This document shows positions 1 to 11,560 of a stretch of 11,735 nt of DNA, one piece after another. Position numbers and translations under genes: made by a program. Positions within the stretch are counted from its first letter, which is position 1. Every line of letters starts with the position of its first letter. The notes under the pieces are model-generated. The model saw only the letters and a list, made by a program, of their open reading frames with translations. It was not told the origin of the DNA and ran no database searches. The stretch is from Methanoculleus sp. UBA374 (GTDB taxonomy: Archaea; Halobacteriota; Methanomicrobia; Methanomicrobiales; Methanoculleaceae). The stretch covers positions 1 to 11,735 of the forward strand of contig DAYL01000006.1 in NCBI GenBank assembly GCA_002508705.1. The letters are read 5' to 3'.

Positions 1-157
1 CACCTCGTTCATGCGCACCCGGGAAGGCCACGGAACCGCAACGGCTATCCCTGACAGCAACCAACAGCCCTATTGCCCTCCGGGCACGCTGTTGGGGGCC
101 GGGACACGATGCCGATCGGGGTTCCCGGCCCCCGCGGGATACCGCAGGCGGTATCAC
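1..157 (-). promoter_or_regulatory. Structured 5' leader, copy L1 (gene lies beyond window edge)
   Basis: First of four related leaders, read right to left. The predicted transcript begins near 157 and contains an inverted repeat GATACCGC-CT-GCGGTATC (138-155), a long hairpin (5' arm 123-133, 3' arm 94-104, GGGGGCCGGGA against TCCCGGCCCCC, 18-nt loop), and the conserved 56-nt core at 32-87. After the core come a pyrimidine-rich stretch (CCTTCCC on the minus strand) and GAGGTG at 1-6. Aligned with copy L2, GAGGTG falls exactly where L2 has its Shine-Dalgarno, so the start codon is probably just left of position 1. The ATG at 12-10 is less likely. The structure is seen; the regulatory role is inferred. 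Confidence 0.7.
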
Positions 158-179
158 CGATCGAGACGTCGACGTTCCT

Positions 180-195
180 CTTTATACCTTTTCTG
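180..195 (-). promoter_or_regulatory. Archaeal BRE/TATA promoter of leader L1
   Basis: On the minus strand AGAAAA is followed directly by GGTATAAAG (180-188), a good match to an archaeal BRE plus TATA box. The same block, GGTATATGG, occurs at the matching place in L2 and L4. A start about 25 nt downstream falls at 155-160, at the edge of the dyad. Between the TATA box and that start lies the palindrome ACGTCGACGT (166-175), also present in L4 but not in L2. Confidence 0.65.
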
Positions 196-2224: not shown

Positions 2225-3088
2225 CTAGACCAGATTTGCTGTCAGGTTGTAGGTCCACTGGACAGTCGCGCTCGCACCAGGCGGCCGCCTCTCTTCGCAG
2301 GCTCCATAGATTGACTGCGTCCCTTCATAATCTCCAACCCAGTCGACCGCATACTTCCCGGCGCTTCCCACCTGGCATTCACCTGGCTTCGGCCTGATCT
2401 TGTCCTGATGGAGCACGAAGTCCTTGCTAATGCTGCACCCTACACCCTTATACTCGGCTCCGAGACCTACCGTCACAGTATCTTCGTTCCCGATGAGATC
2501 TGAGTCAGGGGAATAAATTAACAGGTTAGATGTCGAATCTTCGAATTTTATCCGGTTCCAGAAGTTTTTGAGGTTCGAATCATCGCCCATCCAGACATCT
2601 TCGCGATTCTGTGCTGCGCTCCACTGCCACCAGTAATAATGATCTCTGCCCTGTTCATCGGTCACATCTAACTTATAGAGACTCAGCACGTTGTCAGAAC
2701 TTGCCATAACAACCCCGTCATCATTTTTAGCTTCCAAATGCTCATTCCAAGCCGTCACATACTGGAGATTCCGTGTTATATCCGGCAAGCCAGAAGAACT
2801 CTGAACAAATCTGTCAATATGCGATTTTAGTGCAGTAACATTTTCCGATCCGTATTTTTGCTCCATTTTCTTGGAATAAGCTACAAATTCCTCTTTTGAC
2901 ATTCCTGGGGTTTCAGGGGTTATTCGCAACGTTTTTTGAGCAGAAGCGATCTGATCATAATTCGTATCTCCCTCACCCACAAGAGAATCATTCTCCTGTG
3001 TTGCGCTCACCGCCGGCACGAAGATTGCGCCGACGACCAGCAGTGCCGCGAACAGGGCACTGATTCCGGAAAGATCTTTTGTTTTCAT
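2225..3088 (-). CDS. Secreted protein of unknown function with low GC
   Basis: A 287-residue protein, first gene behind leader L2. GGAGGT lies 8 nt before the ATG at 3088. A signal peptide (about residues 1-29, core ALFAALLVVGAIFVPAV, cleavage after VSA) indicates export. The mature protein is polar and rich in Trp and Tyr near the middle (HYYWWQWS, DVWMGDD), with beta-type segments, three Cys and sequons NVT and NLT toward the ends. No family recognised. GC is strikingly low in the mature N-terminal half: by hand 22 of 60 bases in 2821-2880, against 40 of 60 in a permease stretch (11101-11160). The signal-peptide part is not low. The open frame continues upstream to 3553, but that part is leader and spacer. 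Confidence 0.8.
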   Translation of the reverse strand: MKTKDLSGISALFAALLVVGAIFVPAVSATQENDSLVGEGDTNYDQIASAQKTLRITPETPGMSKEEFVAYSKKMEQKYGSENVTALKSHIDRFVQSSSGLPDITRNLQYVTAWNEHLEAKNDDGVVMASSDNVLSLYKLDVTDEQGRDHYYWWQWSAAQNREDVWMGDDSNLKNFWNRIKFEDSTSNLLIYSPDSDLIGNEDTVTVGLGAEYKGVGCSISKDFVLHQDKIRPKPGECQVGSAGKYAVDWVGDYEGTQSIYGACEERRPPGASATVQWTYNLTANLV

Positions 3089-3252
3089 GGTTCCATACCT
3101 CCTTTCATATGTGCCCCGGGAGACCACGGAACCGTAACGGCTATCCCTTCTGGGGGCCAACAGCCCTATTGCCCTCCGGGCACACTGTGGGGGCCGGGAC
3201 ACGACGCCAATCGAGCTTCCCGGCCCCCGCGGGATACCGCACGCGGTATCGC
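3089..3252 (-). promoter_or_regulatory. Structured 5' leader, copy L2
   Basis: Second leader copy, directly before the secreted-protein gene. In transcript order it has the dyad GATACCGC-GT-GCGGTATC (3250-3233), the long hairpin (5' arm 3218-3228, 3' arm 3189-3199, 11 bp as in L1), the 56-nt core at 3128-3183, a TCTCCC stretch and the Shine-Dalgarno GGAGGT. TCTCC can pair with GGAGG of the Shine-Dalgarno (one G-U pair), and the core segment TGCCCGGAGG can pair with the same stretch if two bulges are allowed. The core differs from L1 at about 8 of 56 positions, seven of them in one short variable segment. Confidence 0.72.
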
Positions 3253-3274
3253 CGATGGAGACTTCGTTGTTCTC

Positions 3275-3289
3275 CCATATACCTTTTCT
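3275..3289 (-). promoter_or_regulatory. Archaeal BRE/TATA promoter of leader L2
   Basis: AGAAAA followed by GGTATATGG (3275-3283) on the minus strand. A start 25 nt downstream falls near 3252, next to the dyad at 3250-3233. The block TGTGACAGAAAAGG upstream is shared with L1 and nearly so with L4. Confidence 0.65.
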
Positions 3290-3290
3290 G

Positions 3291-3440
3291 TGACAAAACC
3301 CTAATCGTCGGAGCGCTCGAAGGCTCCGGAACGGAGGAGACCGGCGGAACCGCCGGCATTGCAGCCCGGGACCGCGCACCTCCCCGGATAACCGGCGGCA
3401 GGAAAAGTGCGCGCGTTTCGGGCCGACCGACCGCATGCTG
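3291..3440 (-). repeat. Inter-cassette spacer repeat with hairpin
   Basis: Non-coding spacer between the permease relic and promoter L2. It is a close copy of 8193-8346: both contain the minus-strand inverted repeat CCGGCGG-TT-CCGCCGG (here 3341-3356) and the block AATCGTC-GAGCG-CTCCGGAACGG. The hairpin is about 55-60 bp upstream of the TATA box and about 85 bp after the stop codon of the relic. It may be a terminator stem or a regulator site. I see no gene. Confidence 0.6.
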
Positions 3441-3583: not shown

Positions 3584-4861
3584 TCACATCCATCCTGCCT
3601 CCTCTCTCGCCACCCTGAGTGCGTAATCGATAATGTTCCAGTCGATCAGAACCGTCCTGTTGTGCATTGTGGTGCCGTTCAGCGCCTCGGTTTCGGGTGT
3701 GAGATTGCGCACCCATACCCAGATCTCCGTGGGCGATACCGCGAAACTCGATATCTGCAATTCAGGATGGTCCTTCTGGAATTGGAGCAATTCAGCCACA
3801 ACTCGCTCTCTTTCTTTCTCATACTCGAGATCATGGATGACCGTAAAGGTCCAGCCGGCGACCTGCTTGCCCTGAACGGCATCCACGTCGTTCTTCTCCG
3901 GTATGGAGTACGCATAGATGGTGGCCTGTTTGTTCAGGGGATCAAGCTCCCACTTTCGTATACCCCCGATCTCCACAAATCGCGCGATGTTTTCCATTTC
4001 CTCTTTCACTTCATCCGGTAACTCGTCTGGCGTCATATTCGCCTCTTTCAGCGCTCGCCTCACGGCTGCAGGCACATACTGTTCCTGAACGACGTTAAAG
4101 GTCCAGCCGGCGACCTCTCTGCCCTGAACGGCCTGCACCTCTTGTTCATGCTCGGCATCCCGGGAAAAGTACGTATAGACGATGACCCGGTTGTTCTGGG
4201 GATCAAGCTCCCACTTCCGTACGCCTCCAATCTGCACGGTTTTTCCCATTTCCTCTTTCACTTCGTCCGGCAACTCATCCAGCGTCATATTCGCCGCATC
4301 CAGCGCCCGCCTCACGAATGAGGGCACATAGGGTTCCCAGATAATGGTAAAGGTCCAATCGCCGACCCGCCTGCCCTGAACAACACTCAACTCTTTTTCA
4401 TGCTCTTCATTCAGGGCGGGGGACGCATAGATGACGACCTGCTTGTTCTGGGAATCAAACTCCCACGTTCGGATAATATCTTCAAACTGCACGGTGTTTT
4501 TCAGTTCTTCGGTTACGTCGCCGGGCAACTCCTCCGGCGTCATATTCGCCTCTTTCAGCACTCGCTCCACGGTGCTCGACCGATACCAGGATGCCTGGAT
4601 CTCCTGGGCACGCTCCAAGATCTCTTTCGATGTCATGTTCCTAACCTCCGGTACTTCTTCAGATCCCTCGTTCGGCGTTTCATTCCGGCTTATATTCCCG
4701 GGCAGGTTCGACTCTGTCGGCGACCCTTCCGGCGTCACGTTCCCGATCTCTGGACGGGTGTCCCCGTCCGGAAGGTGCACGGCTACGATCAGCGCTCCTG
4801 CGCAACAGACGACTCCGATTGCGACAACAGCGGCGATGATTCGTGCAACGGACCTTGCCAT
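3584..4861 (-). CDS. Secreted or membrane-anchored protein with three 84-residue repeats
   Basis: A 425-residue protein. The N-terminal hydrophobic segment (about residues 8-30, IIAAVVAIGVVCCAGALIVAV) is a signal peptide or anchor, with CC and CAG near its end. A Pro/Asn/Glu-rich linker with sequons (NVT, NIS, NET) follows. Residues 98 to about 343 are three tandem repeats. Each has ANMT, an ELP-x(3)-EE helix, KWELD-x(2)-N (or TWEFD), a beta segment, VQG, and WTF at residues 169, 253 and 337. A C-terminal domain (about 350-425) has EIWVWVRNLT and ends EEAGWM. No family recognised. The start at ATG 4861 has AGAGG just before it, after the stop of the upstream gene; a GTG at 4873 is the alternative. 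The permease expected next is reduced to the relic at 3441-3533. Confidence 0.82.
   Translation of the reverse strand: MARSVARIIAAVVAIGVVCCAGALIVAVHLPDGDTRPEIGNVTPEGSPTESNLPGNISRNETPNEGSEEVPEVRNMTSKEILERAQEIQASWYRSSTVERVLKEANMTPEELPGDVTEELKNTVQFEDIIRTWEFDSQNKQVVIYASPALNEEHEKELSVVQGRRVGDWTFTIIWEPYVPSFVRRALDAANMTLDELPDEVKEEMGKTVQIGGVRKWELDPQNNRVIVYTYFSRDAEHEQEVQAVQGREVAGWTFNVVQEQYVPAAVRRALKEANMTPDELPDEVKEEMENIARFVEIGGIRKWELDPLNKQATIYAYSIPEKNDVDAVQGKQVAGWTFTVIHDLEYEKERERVVAELLQFQKDHPELQISSFAVSPTEIWVWVRNLTPETEALNGTTMHNRTVLIDWNIIDYALRVAREEAGWM
3833..4570 (-). repeat. Three tandem 252-bp coding repeats
   Basis: Internal repeat array of the gene at 3584-4861. On the plus strand the word AAAGGTCCA recurs at 3846, 4098 and 4350, a period of exactly 252 bp. 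An extra codon in the first unit makes other landmarks 85 codons apart. Units 2 and 3 are closest in protein (VRRAL, ANMT, ELPDEVKEEM), and unit 1 is more diverged, which suggests stepwise duplication. Confidence 0.85.
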
Positions 4862-4869
4862 TCTTCCTC

Positions 4870-5481
4870 TCACTCCGAGGTGATGGCGCCGTTTTCACCA
4901 ATCAGAAATACCGCTATAGGTGACTCTGGCTTATAGTCGGGGAGAGCACAGGTCATCACTCCGGTTATCTCGTAGATCGTCACCTTCGTATCCTCGGTTT
5001 TTGTCCCGTAGGGCATCTGCCAGTTCCCGGGCCTGATATCCAGGTTGCCAAACTGGTAGAACTTCCAGCTGGAGAACTCCTTCATCTTGCCTCCCAAAAA
5101 CTCGGCGCAGACCGCATGGCTGAGTCCTTGTTCGCTATTCTTGACAAACGTCAGGTAGAAGTCCAGGTCGAAGGTCCCCTCGATGTAGCAGTGCTCGGGG
5201 CAACCTTCCCTCTCCATCCAGTAGCAGCCCGCCAGTGTCTGGAGATGTGCGAGGCATTTCCGGGTCCGGGCATACCGCATCATCATGTTCTCCTGGCATT
5301 CGGCGCTGTACCAGGACCCCGAACCGCCCCCGCAGTCGGGAAGCCCGTGGCGGGAATAACCGATCATGAAGGGCAGGTACACGCCTGCCGACAAGTGGCA
5401 GTCCCCATCCTGGGGGACGTGCCGGTGAGCGGCAGAGGTTTGAGTGTCAGCCTGATATGTGGGCTTTTCTTTCTGTTTCAT
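4870..5481 (-). CDS. Cys-rich protein without visible signal peptide, unknown function
   Basis: A 203-residue protein behind leader L3. The ATG at 5481 has GGAGGA 8 nt upstream. Nine Cys occur at residues 28, 50, 62, 76, 86, 94, 98, 125 and 178; C94 and C98 form a C-x(3)-C with His (EGCPEHCYIEG). There is also a glycine-rich CGGGSGSW stretch. No hydrophobic N-terminal segment is visible, unlike nearly all neighbours. The Cys could bind metal in the cytoplasm or form disulfides if export uses another route. The first four residues, MKQK, equal those of the gene behind L4, perhaps because the 5' end was copied with the leader. It ends 8 bp before the next start. Family not recognised. Confidence 0.78.
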   Translation of the reverse strand: MKQKEKPTYQADTQTSAAHRHVPQDGDCHLSAGVYLPFMIGYSRHGLPDCGGGSGSWYSAECQENMMMRYARTRKCLAHLQTLAGCYWMEREGCPEHCYIEGTFDLDFYLTFVKNSEQGLSHAVCAEFLGGKMKEFSSWKFYQFGNLDIRPGNWQMPYGTKTEDTKVTIYEITGVMTCALPDYKPESPIAVFLIGENGAITSE

Positions 5482-5635
5482 GTGTGTTCCTCCATTTTTT
5501 TGGAAGGTACCCGGAGGAACACGGAACCGCAACGGCTATCCCCGATGGGAGCCAACAGCCCTAATGCCCTCCGGGCACATTGTGGGAGCCGGGGTACGAT
5601 GGCAATCGAACTTCCCGGCCCCCGCGGGATACTAC
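5482..5635 (-). promoter_or_regulatory. Structured leader, copy L3, inside an operon and without promoter
   Basis: Third leader copy. Similarity to the others starts at TATCCCGCGGG (about 5635) and continues through the long hairpin (5' arm 5614-5623, 3' arm 5584-5593, one G-U pair) and the 56-nt core (5523-5578). The TATA box and complete dyad are missing, so this copy is carried on the transcript of the upstream genes. It has the clearest switching geometry. GTGTTCCTCC and GGAGGAACAC (plus-strand arms 5484-5493 and 5513-5522) form a perfect 10-bp stem that buries the Shine-Dalgarno. The same pyrimidine stretch can instead pair, over ten positions with one G-U, with the core segment TGCCCGGAGG (5568-5577 against 5508-5517). 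Confidence 0.75.
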
Positions 5636-5686
5636 CGTTCAGACATCCACGCTGTTCTATCTGAATGGAACCCGTGCCTCTCATCT

Positions 5687-7994: not shown

Positions 7995-8155
7995 TCATTC
8001 TACCTCCAAATTCACGTGCCGGAAAAAAGCAGAACCGCAACGGCTATCCCCGATGGGAGCCAACAGCCCTAATGTCCTCCGGGCACAGTATGGGAGTCCG
8101 GGTACAGTCCCCACGACCGGGCCGGACTCCCGTGGGATACCGCGTGCGGCTTCCC
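7995..8155 (-). promoter_or_regulatory. Structured 5' leader, copy L4
   Basis: Fourth leader copy. The dyad is imperfect here (GAAGCCGC-AC-GCGGTATC, 8153-8136). The long hairpin is intact but with different bases: GGGAGTCCGG pairs with CCGGACTCCC (5' arm 8122-8131, 3' arm 8092-8101, 20-nt loop). Compared with L1 and L2, a G-C pair has become A-U and a C-G pair has become U-A, which is compensatory change. The core (8031-8086) differs from L3 at only two positions. A TTTTTTCC stretch upstream of GGAGGT can pair weakly with it. The core segment TGCCCGGAGG can pair with TTTCCGGCA with one bulge. Confidence 0.74.
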
Positions 8156-8177
8156 CGATCGAGACGTCGACGTTCCT

Positions 8178-8192
8178 CCATATACCTTTTCT
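8178..8192 (-). promoter_or_regulatory. Archaeal BRE/TATA promoter of leader L4
   Basis: AGAAAA followed by GGTATATGG (8178-8186) on the minus strand, identical to L2. The palindrome ACGTCGACGT lies between this box and the expected start near 8155, as in L1. Confidence 0.65.
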
Positions 8193-8346: not shown

Positions 8347-9489
8347 TCACCGGATATCTATCCGCATGAACTTCACGTATGCAGCGGCGAAGAATACGCA
8401 CGGCAGCGTGACGAGTGCAACGATGTTCGCCCATATTCTATCGAGAATTTCGTCCAGGCCAGGCTGTGTCTCCGGCGGCCCCTCGGTGAACGAGTAGGGA
8501 TTGTTGTCCATAGTCATGGCGATCTTCGGGTTGGTGACGGCCGTTGCGGCCTTCTGGTAGTTGACGTTCGGGGAGAGCAGCGAGATCAGCGACGACGCCG
8601 CGGCCCGCTTCTCCCAGTACGACTGCATCTCCCGCTCGTACTGCTTGAATTCTTCCGGATCGACATTCATCGCGGTGTACGGAGTTTCCTGGGCCCCGGC
8701 TGGCTGTTCGGGAGGCGGACCGGCAATCGTCTCGGCGGCCGTCCATCCGAAGATCGGTATCGCCGACGCGATGAGCAGAAAGACGATCAGCGTAAAGATA
8801 AGGGCCGTTCCGCTGTCCGGCGCGACGGTGGACATCAGGAGAGCCAGCGAGAAGTAGGTCAGAACAAATATCGTAGAGACCACGGCGAAGACCAGGATCG
8901 CACCCAGTTCGTCCATGGTGGGTACGATGCCCATAACGAGGAGGATGGCGACCGATACCGCGACCGTCGCACCGAGAGCGATTGCCAGGGCCAGAGCGCT
9001 GCCGAGTGCTTTTCCGTTCACGACCTCGTCCCGGTAGACCGGGTGAGAGAGGAGAATCTTGAGCGACCGGGTCTCTTTCTCTTTCGAGACGAGGTCGAAC
9101 CCCATGGCGATGCCGAGGAAGACCCCGAACATCACGAAGTAGTCGGCCATCTTCGTGAATACCAGCAGGGGCGACGGTTTCTCGGGCATATACCCCGGGG
9201 CGTCGGAGGAGACGGACTGCATCCGTTGTGCGTATGATGCGAGCATATCGCCGTACTGTTCCGCGCCGTCGTGGACGCCGATCGCGGAAATGATCAGGAA
9301 CAGCGCAAATATGCTGAGGAAGCGCCGGCTGGTCACCTGGTCGACGAACTCTTTCTGCAGCACGACGAAGAGGCCGGACGTCACGGGCCGCCGCCTCCGC
9401 CCGTATGTCTCGTCCCGGATGGCGGGGACCGGGTTTTCGGGGCGGCCCCGCATATCATCGGAGGATACCGGATTGTTGTCATTTTTCAT
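8347..9489 (-). CDS. ABC-2 type transporter permease (NosY-like)
   Basis: A 380-residue permease and the longest of the four. The first 40 residues are a polar, Arg-rich cytoplasmic tail (GRRRRPVTSG), then QKEFVDQVTSRRF and helix 1 (about 57-73). The motif FDLVSKEKETRSL followed by HPVYRDEVVNGKALG (131-163) marks the ABC-2 family. Four central helices follow to about 270. A long extracytoplasmic loop (about 270-345) is rich in Pro, Gln and Ala. The tail KFMRIDIR is the family ending. The ATG at 9489 is 15 bp after the TAATAA of the upstream permease, with only a weak GGA before it. It is last in the permease operon, and the L4 spacer follows. Confidence 0.9.
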   Translation of the reverse strand: MKNDNNPVSSDDMRGRPENPVPAIRDETYGRRRRPVTSGLFVVLQKEFVDQVTSRRFLSIFALFLIISAIGVHDGAEQYGDMLASYAQRMQSVSSDAPGYMPEKPSPLLVFTKMADYFVMFGVFLGIAMGFDLVSKEKETRSLKILLSHPVYRDEVVNGKALGSALALAIALGATVAVSVAILLVMGIVPTMDELGAILVFAVVSTIFVLTYFSLALLMSTVAPDSGTALIFTLIVFLLIASAIPIFGWTAAETIAGPPPEQPAGAQETPYTAMNVDPEEFKQYEREMQSYWEKRAAASSLISLLSPNVNYQKAATAVTNPKIAMTMDNNPYSFTEGPPETQPGLDEILDRIWANIVALVTLPCVFFAAAYVKFMRIDIR

Positions 9490-9504: not shown

Positions 9505-10551
9505 TTATCGCAGGTCGATCCGCATGAACCGTGCATAGGCGACGGCGAGGAAGATCGCCGGGAACGCAACGAGACCGACGATATTCTGCCAGAACCGGCC
9601 CAGCACATCTTCGAGACCGGGTTTTTCCGCAACGGCTCCCCCGTCCCCGTCCCCGCCGCCGGAATGGAGGGACGTCAGCATCTGCACCATCGTCTCATAG
9701 TTGCCGTTGGGGCTGAGCGCCAGAATGGTGTTCTTGACGCCGTTGTACGCCGCGTAGCGGCTGCTCCGCTCCTCCAGGTACTGCTGCACCTCGTCCGGCG
9801 TGGGGTTGTCGCCGGGCCACGCCGGCGCCGGGTAGGAGCTGGCGGCGGAGTTTGCCGCATCTTCTGCAGCGACGGGCACAATCACCGAGAAGAGGATGAA
9901 GACCGCCATCGTCCAGGCGAGCGCCCGGCCGCCGTCTTCGCTGAACGCAGAGAAGGCAACGGCGACGCCGAAGTATGCGAGCAGGTAGAAGACCAGGGCG
10001 CCCCAGTAGAGCGCCATGATCGCCGCATCGTACGGCGTGACGGTAAGCCCGGCGACGAGCGCCCCGGCCAGCACCAGGAGGTACGGCACGGCGGATGCGA
10101 AGACCAGCACGGCGGTGCCGCCCACGGCCTTGCCGGTGATGACTTCGTCGCGATAGACCGGACGGGAGAGGAGCGTCCGGAGCGACCGGGTCGTACGTTC
10201 TCCCGAGATGAGGTCGAACCCCACGGCAATCGCAAGCAGCGGGCTGAAGAGGAGGAACGAGCGCCCCATGGTCCCGAGGATGATCCGCAGCACCGGCCAC
10301 GGGGGCGGAGAGGACACGAGCGGCGATGTAGTGAGGTGTTCGGAGTGCGCCGTCATCTCCAGAATGGCCAGATACTGCTCCATCTGGTGCGTGTAGCTGG
10401 CAAAGCCTTGCTCCAGGGCAAAGAGAGTCAGGATGCCGAGGAGCGCGAGCACCAGGAGGAACGTCCGGTCGGTGAGGTGGTCGGCAAACTCCTTTCGCGC
10501 GATGATCGCCACACGGGAGAGGTCGATTCTCATCGGCGCATCACCGGACAT
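9505..10551 (-). CDS. ABC-2 type transporter permease (NosY-like)
   Basis: A 348-residue permease. RKEFADHLTDRTF leads into helix 1 (about 30-50). The family motif is FDLISGERTTRSL then RPVYRDEVITGKAVGG (112-145); ISGER replaces the VSKEK or VSRER of the paralogues. Further helices follow to about 225, then an outer loop with PAPAWPGDNPTPDE and a Gly/Asp-rich stretch, and a last helix ending ARFMRIDLR. The start at 10551 overlaps the upstream gene by 11 bp and gives MSGD, matching the paralogues. ATG 10533, with GGTGATG 6 nt upstream, is a credible shorter start. The gene ends in two stop codons (TAATAA). Confidence 0.9.
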   Translation of the reverse strand: MSGDAPMRIDLSRVAIIARKEFADHLTDRTFLLVLALLGILTLFALEQGFASYTHQMEQYLAILEMTAHSEHLTTSPLVSSPPPWPVLRIILGTMGRSFLLFSPLLAIAVGFDLISGERTTRSLRTLLSRPVYRDEVITGKAVGGTAVLVFASAVPYLLVLAGALVAGLTVTPYDAAIMALYWGALVFYLLAYFGVAVAFSAFSEDGGRALAWTMAVFILFSVIVPVAAEDAANSAASSYPAPAWPGDNPTPDEVQQYLEERSSRYAAYNGVKNTILALSPNGNYETMVQMLTSLHSGGGDGDGGAVAEKPGLEDVLGRFWQNIVGLVAFPAIFLAVAYARFMRIDLR

Positions 10552-11560
10552 CCATCCTCTGGAACGCCAGGTAGGCTATCCCGAAGAGCACGAACGGCGC
10601 CGTGAAGAGCACCAGCGCGTTCTGCCAGAACCGCGCGAGGGCGTCCGTCGGGTGTGCGGTCCCGTCGTAGGGGAGGTGCGCTATGCGCCCTTCGAGGAAC
10701 TGGTAGGCGGTGAGCCGCGGTTCAAGGGCGCTCTTTGCAACCAGTTCGTAGTTCCACTGCGGGGAAAAGGCCGTTACGACGCTGTTCAGCAGGTCGAGCC
10801 GGGTCTGGTAGTCTCCCCGCTCGTCGGGGCTCGTGCCCAGAGGGGAACCCCCGACAACGACGTCCTTTGCAACCGCGCCCGCCGTCGGGACAAGGGCGGT
10901 AAAGATGAAGAACGCCACCAGCGCGCACAGGAACGCCTTCCCGGTCCGGGGGACCACCGTCGAGATCGTCAGGGCGAGGCTGAAGTAGAACGCCAGGAAC
11001 GCAACCGTTGCGAGCGCAAAGAGCAGGATCGAGACCAGGGCGTCGGTGTCGGGCACGATCCCGTCGACGAGGAGGATTCCCAGCGAGACGGCAAGCCCGG
11101 CGAAGACGAGCGTCGCCAGGGCGAGAAGTCCCCCCAGCGCCTTGCCGGTGATGATCTCGTCCCGGAAGACCGGCCGGACGAGGAGCAGTTTGAGCGAACC
11201 GCTCTGCCGCTCCCGCGAGACGAGGTCGAACCCCATGGCGATCGCCAGGATCGCCCCGGTGGTCGAGAGCGCACCGGGGAGACGGGAGTAGACGTCCGCG
11301 GCGCTCGGCGGGCTGGAACCGAACTCATCGACGATACCCCCGGGGTGGACGACGGGACCGGCGGCGTATGCCTCGGCCGTCGCGTGGTAGCCGCCGAGAC
11401 CCTCCTGGAACGGGAGGAGGCAGACCACGACGAGCAGGGCCGCAAAGACGAGAAACGTCCGGCTCGTCAGGTGGTCGGTAAGTTCCTTGCGGGCCACCGT
11501 CAGGAGGCCGCTTTCGGCCGACCGGTTGTTCCGGATTGGAGAGGTTTTGTCACCGTTCAT
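10541..11560 (-). CDS. ABC-2 type transporter permease (NosY-like)
   Basis: A 339-residue permease, first of the three-gene permease run. RKELTDHLTSRTF leads into helix 1 (about 34-52). The motif FDLVSRERQSGSL then RPVFRDEIITGKALGG lies at 111-144. Helices follow near 145-170, 175-200 and 205-225, then an outer loop containing SPQWNYELV, a pattern also seen as SPNVNYQKA and SPNGNYETM in the paralogues, and a last helix ending FQRMDVR. The ATG at 11560 has no strong Shine-Dalgarno. The stop overlaps the next start by 11 bp. The 80 bp before it contain a GC-rich hairpin and no visible TATA box, so transcription may come from the gene further right. Confidence 0.9.
   Translation of the reverse strand: MNGDKTSPIRNNRSAESGLLTVARKELTDHLTSRTFLVFAALLVVVCLLPFQEGLGGYHATAEAYAAGPVVHPGGIVDEFGSSPPSAADVYSRLPGALSTTGAILAIAMGFDLVSRERQSGSLKLLLVRPVFRDEIITGKALGGLLALATLVFAGLAVSLGILLVDGIVPDTDALVSILLFALATVAFLAFYFSLALTISTVVPRTGKAFLCALVAFFIFTALVPTAGAVAKDVVVGGSPLGTSPDERGDYQTRLDLLNSVVTAFSPQWNYELVAKSALEPRLTAYQFLEGRIAHLPYDGTAHPTDALARFWQNALVLFTAPFVLFGIAYLAFQRMDVR

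Follow-up and report, generated by a model that had tools for sequence, protein, structure and literature searches.

Translational riboswitches are structured 5′ leaders in which one strand has two mutually exclusive partners, one of them being the Shine-Dalgarno (SD) sequence. The ligand of the crcB motif is fluoride. This 5′ UTR motif of bacteria is also found in archaea (PMC2864571). Conserved cis-regulatory RNAs precede ribosomal-protein operons in archaea, one S15 class being present in Methanomicrobia (PMC7247131). Among the long 5′ UTRs of Methanolobus psychrophilus, one is predicted to fold in such a way that the ribosome-binding site is buried; in the text consulted, this case goes with temperature-dependent start-site choice and no common RNA family is described (PMC5378194).

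The window analysed here, a stretch of 11,735 nt from Methanoculleus sp. UBA374, contains four leaders (L1 to L4) that resemble translational riboswitches in having a structured 5′ region, an SD at its 3′ edge and a strand with two possible, exclusive partners. They differ from them in that they precede many, mostly secreted, protein families, in that their third hairpin (P3) is very stable in a model without ligand, and in that they have no Rfam match. With the archaeal ribosomal-protein leaders they have in common that they are conserved, apparently cis-regulatory leader RNAs of archaea (PMC7247131), but unlike in those leaders no ribosomal-protein family was matched among 31 leader-gene representatives. 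Like the Methanolobus psychrophilus examples (PMC5378194), they are apparent 5′ UTRs of a methanogen, but the predicted openness of their SD is nearly flat with temperature. The crcB model of Rfam gave no match to the window at E-values up to 5.

A leader RNA family of Methanomicrobiales

All four window leaders are members of an RNA family whose copies are about 150 nt long and have three hairpins, P1 to P3. They lie on the minus strand: L1 at 12..161 (its gene lies beyond the window start), L2 at 3108..3256, L3, the whole conserved element P1-P2-P3, at 5504..5653 and L4 at 8011..8159. The covariance model R1 (55 copies) gave them 157.7, 166.2, 127.8 (E 7e-27) and 121.3 bits, respectively, the window copies themselves being in its building set. 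All four were also recovered, with E-values of 2e-26 to 2e-20, by a second model, R2, built solely from distant copies: L1 scored 93.2 bits, L2 93.4 bits and L4 72.6 bits, and L3, with no window or close copy in the model, 80.3 bits (E 1e-22, 5491-5653). The window leaders are similar to each other across about 120-130 nt. The proteins behind three of them (the fourth gene is off the window) have no common Pfam family and align poorly.

A pattern scan with one genome per species found 16 matches, six of them in Methanomicrobiales (four of the six titled Methanoculleus) and ten in bacteria. The bacterial matches were taken as chance, and the same pattern had no match in viral contigs. A DNA search starting from these found copies in 31 of the 232 genomes of the order. 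A set of 87 matches included 73 long ones, 70 of them distinct, and 63 of these form alignment A2. Alignment A3 holds 55 of the 63, leaving out degenerate copies and those caught by a name filter, among them one sound copy (L086:813). R1 matched 36 of the 232 genomes and R2 41, with up to 11 copies per genome; these copy numbers are lower bounds, as the filters of the many-genome searches were stricter and only a few candidates were scored in each genome. The R2 matches in G042 (E 9e-4) and G155 (E 1.2e-4), the two genomes with the weakest ones, may be due to chance. In a sample of 392 genomes from the phylum R1 matched 18 (E ≤0.01), every one of which had already been matched within the order. 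R2 was built from the 27 copies of alignment A6 alone. These copies of a divergent group (genomes G085-G095) were chosen from 43 and aligned by sequence alone; the others were eight copies of the closer group and eight poor ones. R2 made at least 138 matches in the 100 stretches searched, which gave 134 distinct rows.

Rfam 15 returned three matches in the window at E-values up to 5, all far below the gathering score. One of them, to SrbA (E 1.4, 16.1 bits against a gathering score of 69), overlaps L4; the other two are off the leaders. Six stretches with distant copies had no Rfam match at E-values up to 1. The sequence-only reading had recognised no known riboswitch consensus in the core, and indeed no Rfam 15 class is matched by the leaders. 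No described leader RNA of Methanoculleus or Methanomicrobiales was found in the searched literature, whose coverage leaves out most subscription journals. The leaders form a genuine RNA family that, to judge from Rfam 15 and the literature searched, has not been described. A likeness to SRP RNA, considered on account of the secreted products, had no support from Rfam.

Five copies (L182, L183, L185, L187 and L200) form a divergent class of leaders in which P2 is larger and branched, and their products begin with MNGKIGMRAF or a similar sequence with a hydrophobic start. In L183, L185, L187 and L200 SD stretches such as CUGGAGG complement the CCUCCGG of P3 over 6-8 bp.

Three-hairpin structure and covariation

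Single folds and two alignments agreed on the three hairpins. In the minimum free-energy fold of L3 (minus strand), P1 spans 5624..5652, P2 5584..5623 and P3 5507..5578; all three are family helices, P2 with two-sided changes. The pairing in P1 is GATACCGC/GCGGTATC-like and that in P2 is GGGGCCGGG/CCCGGCCCC-like with variable sequence, while P3 is a long irregular hairpin in which CCCGGAGG pairs with CCUCCGGG at the base. The fold of L3 beats 200 of 200 dinucleotide shuffles (z -4.8); for L2 (z -2.9) one of 200 shuffles was equally good, and for L4 (z -2.4) four of 200. A TATCCC/GGGATA pairing enclosing the whole element had been suspected by eye, but the folds place these two words in P1 and P3.

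The strongest test of the structure is alignment A6, which was made from sequence only. Folded de novo with RNAalifold and RIBOSUM scoring, it yielded P1-P3 at -56.8 kcal/mol, compared with -19.8 ± 4.0 (best -32.0) for 100 column shuffles. In it, 83.8% of cells are paired, a value reached by none of 500 shuffles, and versions slid along the alignment gave 42-51%. Default RNAalifold scoring found only one small, weak hairpin in A6, and in A2 a partial structure that became all three hairpins after gap-rich columns had been removed. In the 134 rows, whose alignment was fitted to the R2 structure and is hence biased toward it, 84.5% of cells are paired (slid versions: 40-55%) and 36 of 41 pairs have two-sided changes that keep the pairing; none of 500 shuffles was as good by any of five measures.

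In both A3 and A6, none of 500 shuffles matched the percentage paired, the number of cells with two-sided changes or the covariation score. The number of two-sided pairs and of pair types was at chance level in A6 (reached by 124 and 285 of 500 shuffles), and in A3 they were reached by 37 and 5 of 500. With a tree-aware null no base pair taken singly was significant in A2, A3, A6 or A8. When the structure pairs were taken as a set, A3 gave 2.90 against at most 2.35 in 150 replicates and A8 14.6 against at most 4.9 in 150, while A6 (1.51) fell inside the range of 300 replicates (maximum 2.12). Overall, the family structure is well supported: instead of homologues without conserved pairing, which would have spoken against the original suggestion, copies across the order keep the pairing through changes.

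The two strands at the base of P3 are conserved to different degrees. The 5′ strand is the most conserved paired part (mean entropy 0.39 bits); its partner has 1.12 bits, possibly inflated by uncertain alignment, and other strands have 0.70-1.14. Common C-to-U changes in the 3′ strand preserve the pairing, and P3 strands fit their own partner much better than a swapped one, none of 2000 permutations being as good (79 of 130 matches).

Position in the transcript

Of 127 distinct upstream stretches, 120 have a TATA-like word 14-36 nt ahead of the leader, compared with 37.8 expected from shuffles. In the window it is found on the minus strand at 182..186 for L1, at 3277..3281 for L2 (TATAT, 21-25 nt before the leader start) and at 8180..8184 for L4. 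Archaeal TATA words have a usual spacing from the transcript start. Given this spacing and the position of the word, the transcript probably starts at or near P1. L3 has no TATA-like word at the usual distance, only a TTATAG about 14 nt further upstream. Its leader starts 33 nt past the stop codon of the preceding gene and therefore probably acts within a longer transcript. On the downstream side, a start codon on the same strand follows P3 by 10-60 nt (median 25 nt) in 116 of the 131 leaders, out of 134 distinct ones, that have enough sequence. The element thus lies between the TATA-like word and the SD, and from this position its conserved, structured core appears to be located in the 5′ UTR.

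In several close copies a block, TTGTCACAGAAAAGGTATAT, extends past the TATA-like word (e.g. window 3277-3296), and the leader genes may also share a transcription-factor site there. L2 has an upstream ATG before the SD with a short reading frame overlapping the start codon (3085-3108, minus strand); it is absent from some copies and is probably due to chance.

Two competing pairings around the Shine-Dalgarno sequence

In L3, the anti-SD arm GTGTTCCTCC (5513..5522, minus strand) and the SD arm GGAGGAACAC (5484..5493, minus strand, with the SD GGAGG at 5489-5493) are complementary at 10 of 10 positions and enclose the SD of the gene starting at 5481, as the sequence-only reading had claimed. 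The rival pairing that it had named is also there: CCTCCGGGTA (5508..5517, minus strand), the basal 3′ strand of P3, forms 10 pairs, one of them G-U, with TGCCCGGAGG of the core (5568..5577, minus strand), the near-invariant, SD-like basal 5′ strand. The coordinates of all four strands were checked. As the 3′ strand is common to both pairings, these are mutually exclusive. The term "alternative", which had been given to the core pairing, does not hold, since this pairing is the conserved, predicted-dominant base of P3. When the 50-nt stretch was shuffled with CCTCC and GGAGG fixed, a stem of at least 10 bp appeared in 1043 of 200000 shuffles (0.5%). The window contains six perfect 10-nt inverted repeats with loops of 3-35 nt, of which five are in P2 of L1, L2 and L4 and one is the SD stem of L3.

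The predicted cost of burying the SD is +1.3 kcal/mol in L3, and -1.6, -0.7 and +3.7 kcal/mol in its orthologues L058, L066 and L074. In both predicted states of L3 the upper part of P3 is kept, and when freed, the 5′ strand folds into a separate small hairpin. Weaker versions of both pairings had been proposed for the other window leaders, and this agrees with the computation: the predicted minimum-energy folds of L1, L2 and L4 all contain the P3 pairing, and the predicted cost of burying the SD is +4.3 kcal/mol for L2 and +5.9 for L4 (L1 is truncated by the window start, so only L2, L3 and L4 were priced). Over 84 copies (of 130 matches), the strand released by forcing the base of P3 open pairs with the SD instead, at a median cost of 5.6 kcal/mol. 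The SD-burying state is within 3 kcal/mol in 22 of them, favoured in 20 and costs more than 10 in 19; the SD-burying stem is thus predicted to be the minor state in most copies. A freed-strand hairpin of at least 3 bp is possible in 121 of 138 copies, with a mean of 3.80 bp compared with 2.91 for shuffled letters, a modest excess.

Leader strands also match their own SD region better (-10.67) than swapped ones (-9.65, sd 0.37), with p about 0.003 over 47 protein families (100 of 138 matches). In a smaller set (84 of 130 matches) p was 0.05-0.14, and when look-alike cassettes were merged (10 clusters; 83 of the 100 matches) it was 0.04-0.19. Two-way switching is supported for L3 and suggestive elsewhere.

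Proposed mechanism and alternative explanations

The best reading, to which about an even chance is given, is that of a translational leader in which translation would be controlled by two-way pairing, the SD being free when P3 is formed and buried when P3 is opened. The cis-acting RNA would start at or near the first hairpin and end beside the SD, and P1, P2 and the upper part of P3 would make up its stable body. At the base of P3, the CCUCC-like 3′ strand would have the choice of two near-identical partners, the near-invariant CCCGGAGG or the SD. With the base formed, the SD would be free and the gene translated; with the base opened, the same strand would cover the SD, in the best cases up to the start codon, and the released 5′ strand could close a small hairpin, as predicted for L3. 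Both states would occur in the cell and control translation, with their balance set by a small molecule or a protein.

The riboswitch-type layout with a translational expression platform that had been suggested for this locus stands in part. The conserved structured leader, the SD at its 3′ edge, the two exclusive pairings, the absence of an Rfam class and the order-wide copies all agree with it. The minor share of the SD stem in most copies, the weak SD matching in two tests and the diversity of the products do not. P3 would also form first during transcription, so most leaders may never switch unaided.

The same energies and weak matches are what a static structured leader would produce, one in which P1-P3 shield the mRNA at its 5′ end or keep the SD open, the long SD stem of L3 being peculiar to one gene family. 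P3 is favoured in most copies, by the median given above, and the SD matching is weak in two of its tests, yet this explanation, possible but rather doubtful, accounts neither for the near-invariant 5′ strand of P3 with its varying partner nor for the near-equal energies of L3 and two of the three priced orthologues. The asymmetry of the two strands speaks for a switch: a near-invariant strand with a varying partner is expected if the former must copy the SD, which the ribosome keeps fixed, and it would be held in place because the third strand must fit both the SD and its copy. The conservation of CCCGGAGG would also be explained if it bound a protein or the 16S rRNA directly.

Binding of a protein is also the essence of a second explanation, in which a regulatory or secretion-related protein on the GGAGG-bearing P3 represses or activates the gene set. 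The output could still be two-fold, so it overlaps the best reading. A signal-peptide-like start was detected, by a home-made rule, in 95 of 116 leader genes, compared with 67 of 153 other genes of the same stretches. That so many protein families have the same leader is easier to reconcile with a protein regulator than with a pathway metabolite, and the conserved sequence block within the helix fits as well. A metabolite riboswitch would not usually be expected before such diverse and mostly secreted products, and a protein trigger is therefore about as likely as a metabolite. As a complete account, the protein-binding leader is a serious candidate but probably not the right one.

Three other explanations are unlikely. 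An RNA thermometer, with an SD stem that melts on warming, is suggested by the SD being partly paired in many copies and by L058, whose predicted openness rises from 0.07 at 37 °C to 0.65 at 65 °C. Averaged across 100 copies, the predicted openness hardly changes with temperature (15 °C: 0.39; 37 °C: 0.41; 45 °C: 0.44), and that of L3 only goes from 0.16 to 0.18, which makes a thermometer very improbable. Slightly less credible still is a transcription attenuator, in which P3 would terminate or pause transcription: P3 is strong and GC-rich, and in L4 its 3′ strand includes six consecutive T, but in the sequences inspected by eye the leader continues to the SD and the start codon and no regular U run follows P3. 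Least credible of all is a duplicated or mobile repeat without an RNA role, which would fit the many copies and the similar promoter, leader and signal-peptide segments of genes from different families but not the pairing-preserving changes or the fixed orientation and distance to the start codon.

The two-way translational leader may have a wider meaning. It is conceivable, though doubtful, that in Methanoculleus and its relatives among the Methanomicrobiales many exported proteins are under the control of one archaeal RNA class, a common switch that works by means of a built-in copy of the SD and an anti-SD strand that trades between this copy and the real SD. If so, a single signal, be it a small molecule or a protein, would set the translation of many secreted proteins together. 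The leader is multi-copy, has a working covariance model and occupies a fixed site before genes of mostly secreted proteins. L3, with two folds predicted within about 1-2 kcal/mol, is a ready test molecule, which makes post-transcriptional control of archaeal secretion directly testable.

Genes behind the leaders

The gene behind L2 (2225..3088, minus strand) encodes a protein of 287 aa and that behind L4 (7236..7994, minus strand) a protein of 252 aa with a DUF6345 domain (PF19872, E 3.5e-47), both with a signal-peptide-like start. L3 and its orthologues are among the exceptions, as their products have no such start. The L3 product (4870..5481, minus strand, 203 aa) has 13 relatives in the protein collection, and the source-named ones are hypothetical proteins, one of them from Methanoculleus. 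Among the family representatives (set A5, 31 of 33), Pfam matches were few and limited to DUF6345, DUF4901, PepSY, subtilase, PPC and C39 peptidase; two subtilase-like models were matched in NCBIfam. No common pathway was seen among the 31 representatives, most of which have no annotated function.

Some proteins that belong to different families by the word rule begin almost identically over 25-30 residues (MKPKFLSGIGALFAALLIVGAIFVPAVSA and similar sequences), which looks as though promoter, leader and signal peptide moved together as a single cassette.

Around the leader genes of the window there are four similar genes (347-1312, 8347-9489, 9505-10551 and 10541-11560, minus strand) with a common repeated stretch of 144 bp (family D1), and the two of them that were scanned with Pfam are ABC-2 type permeases. 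The gene after that of L3 encodes a 425-aa protein with three repeats at a spacing of about 252 bp (window 3831-4572) and no Pfam domain above the cut-off.
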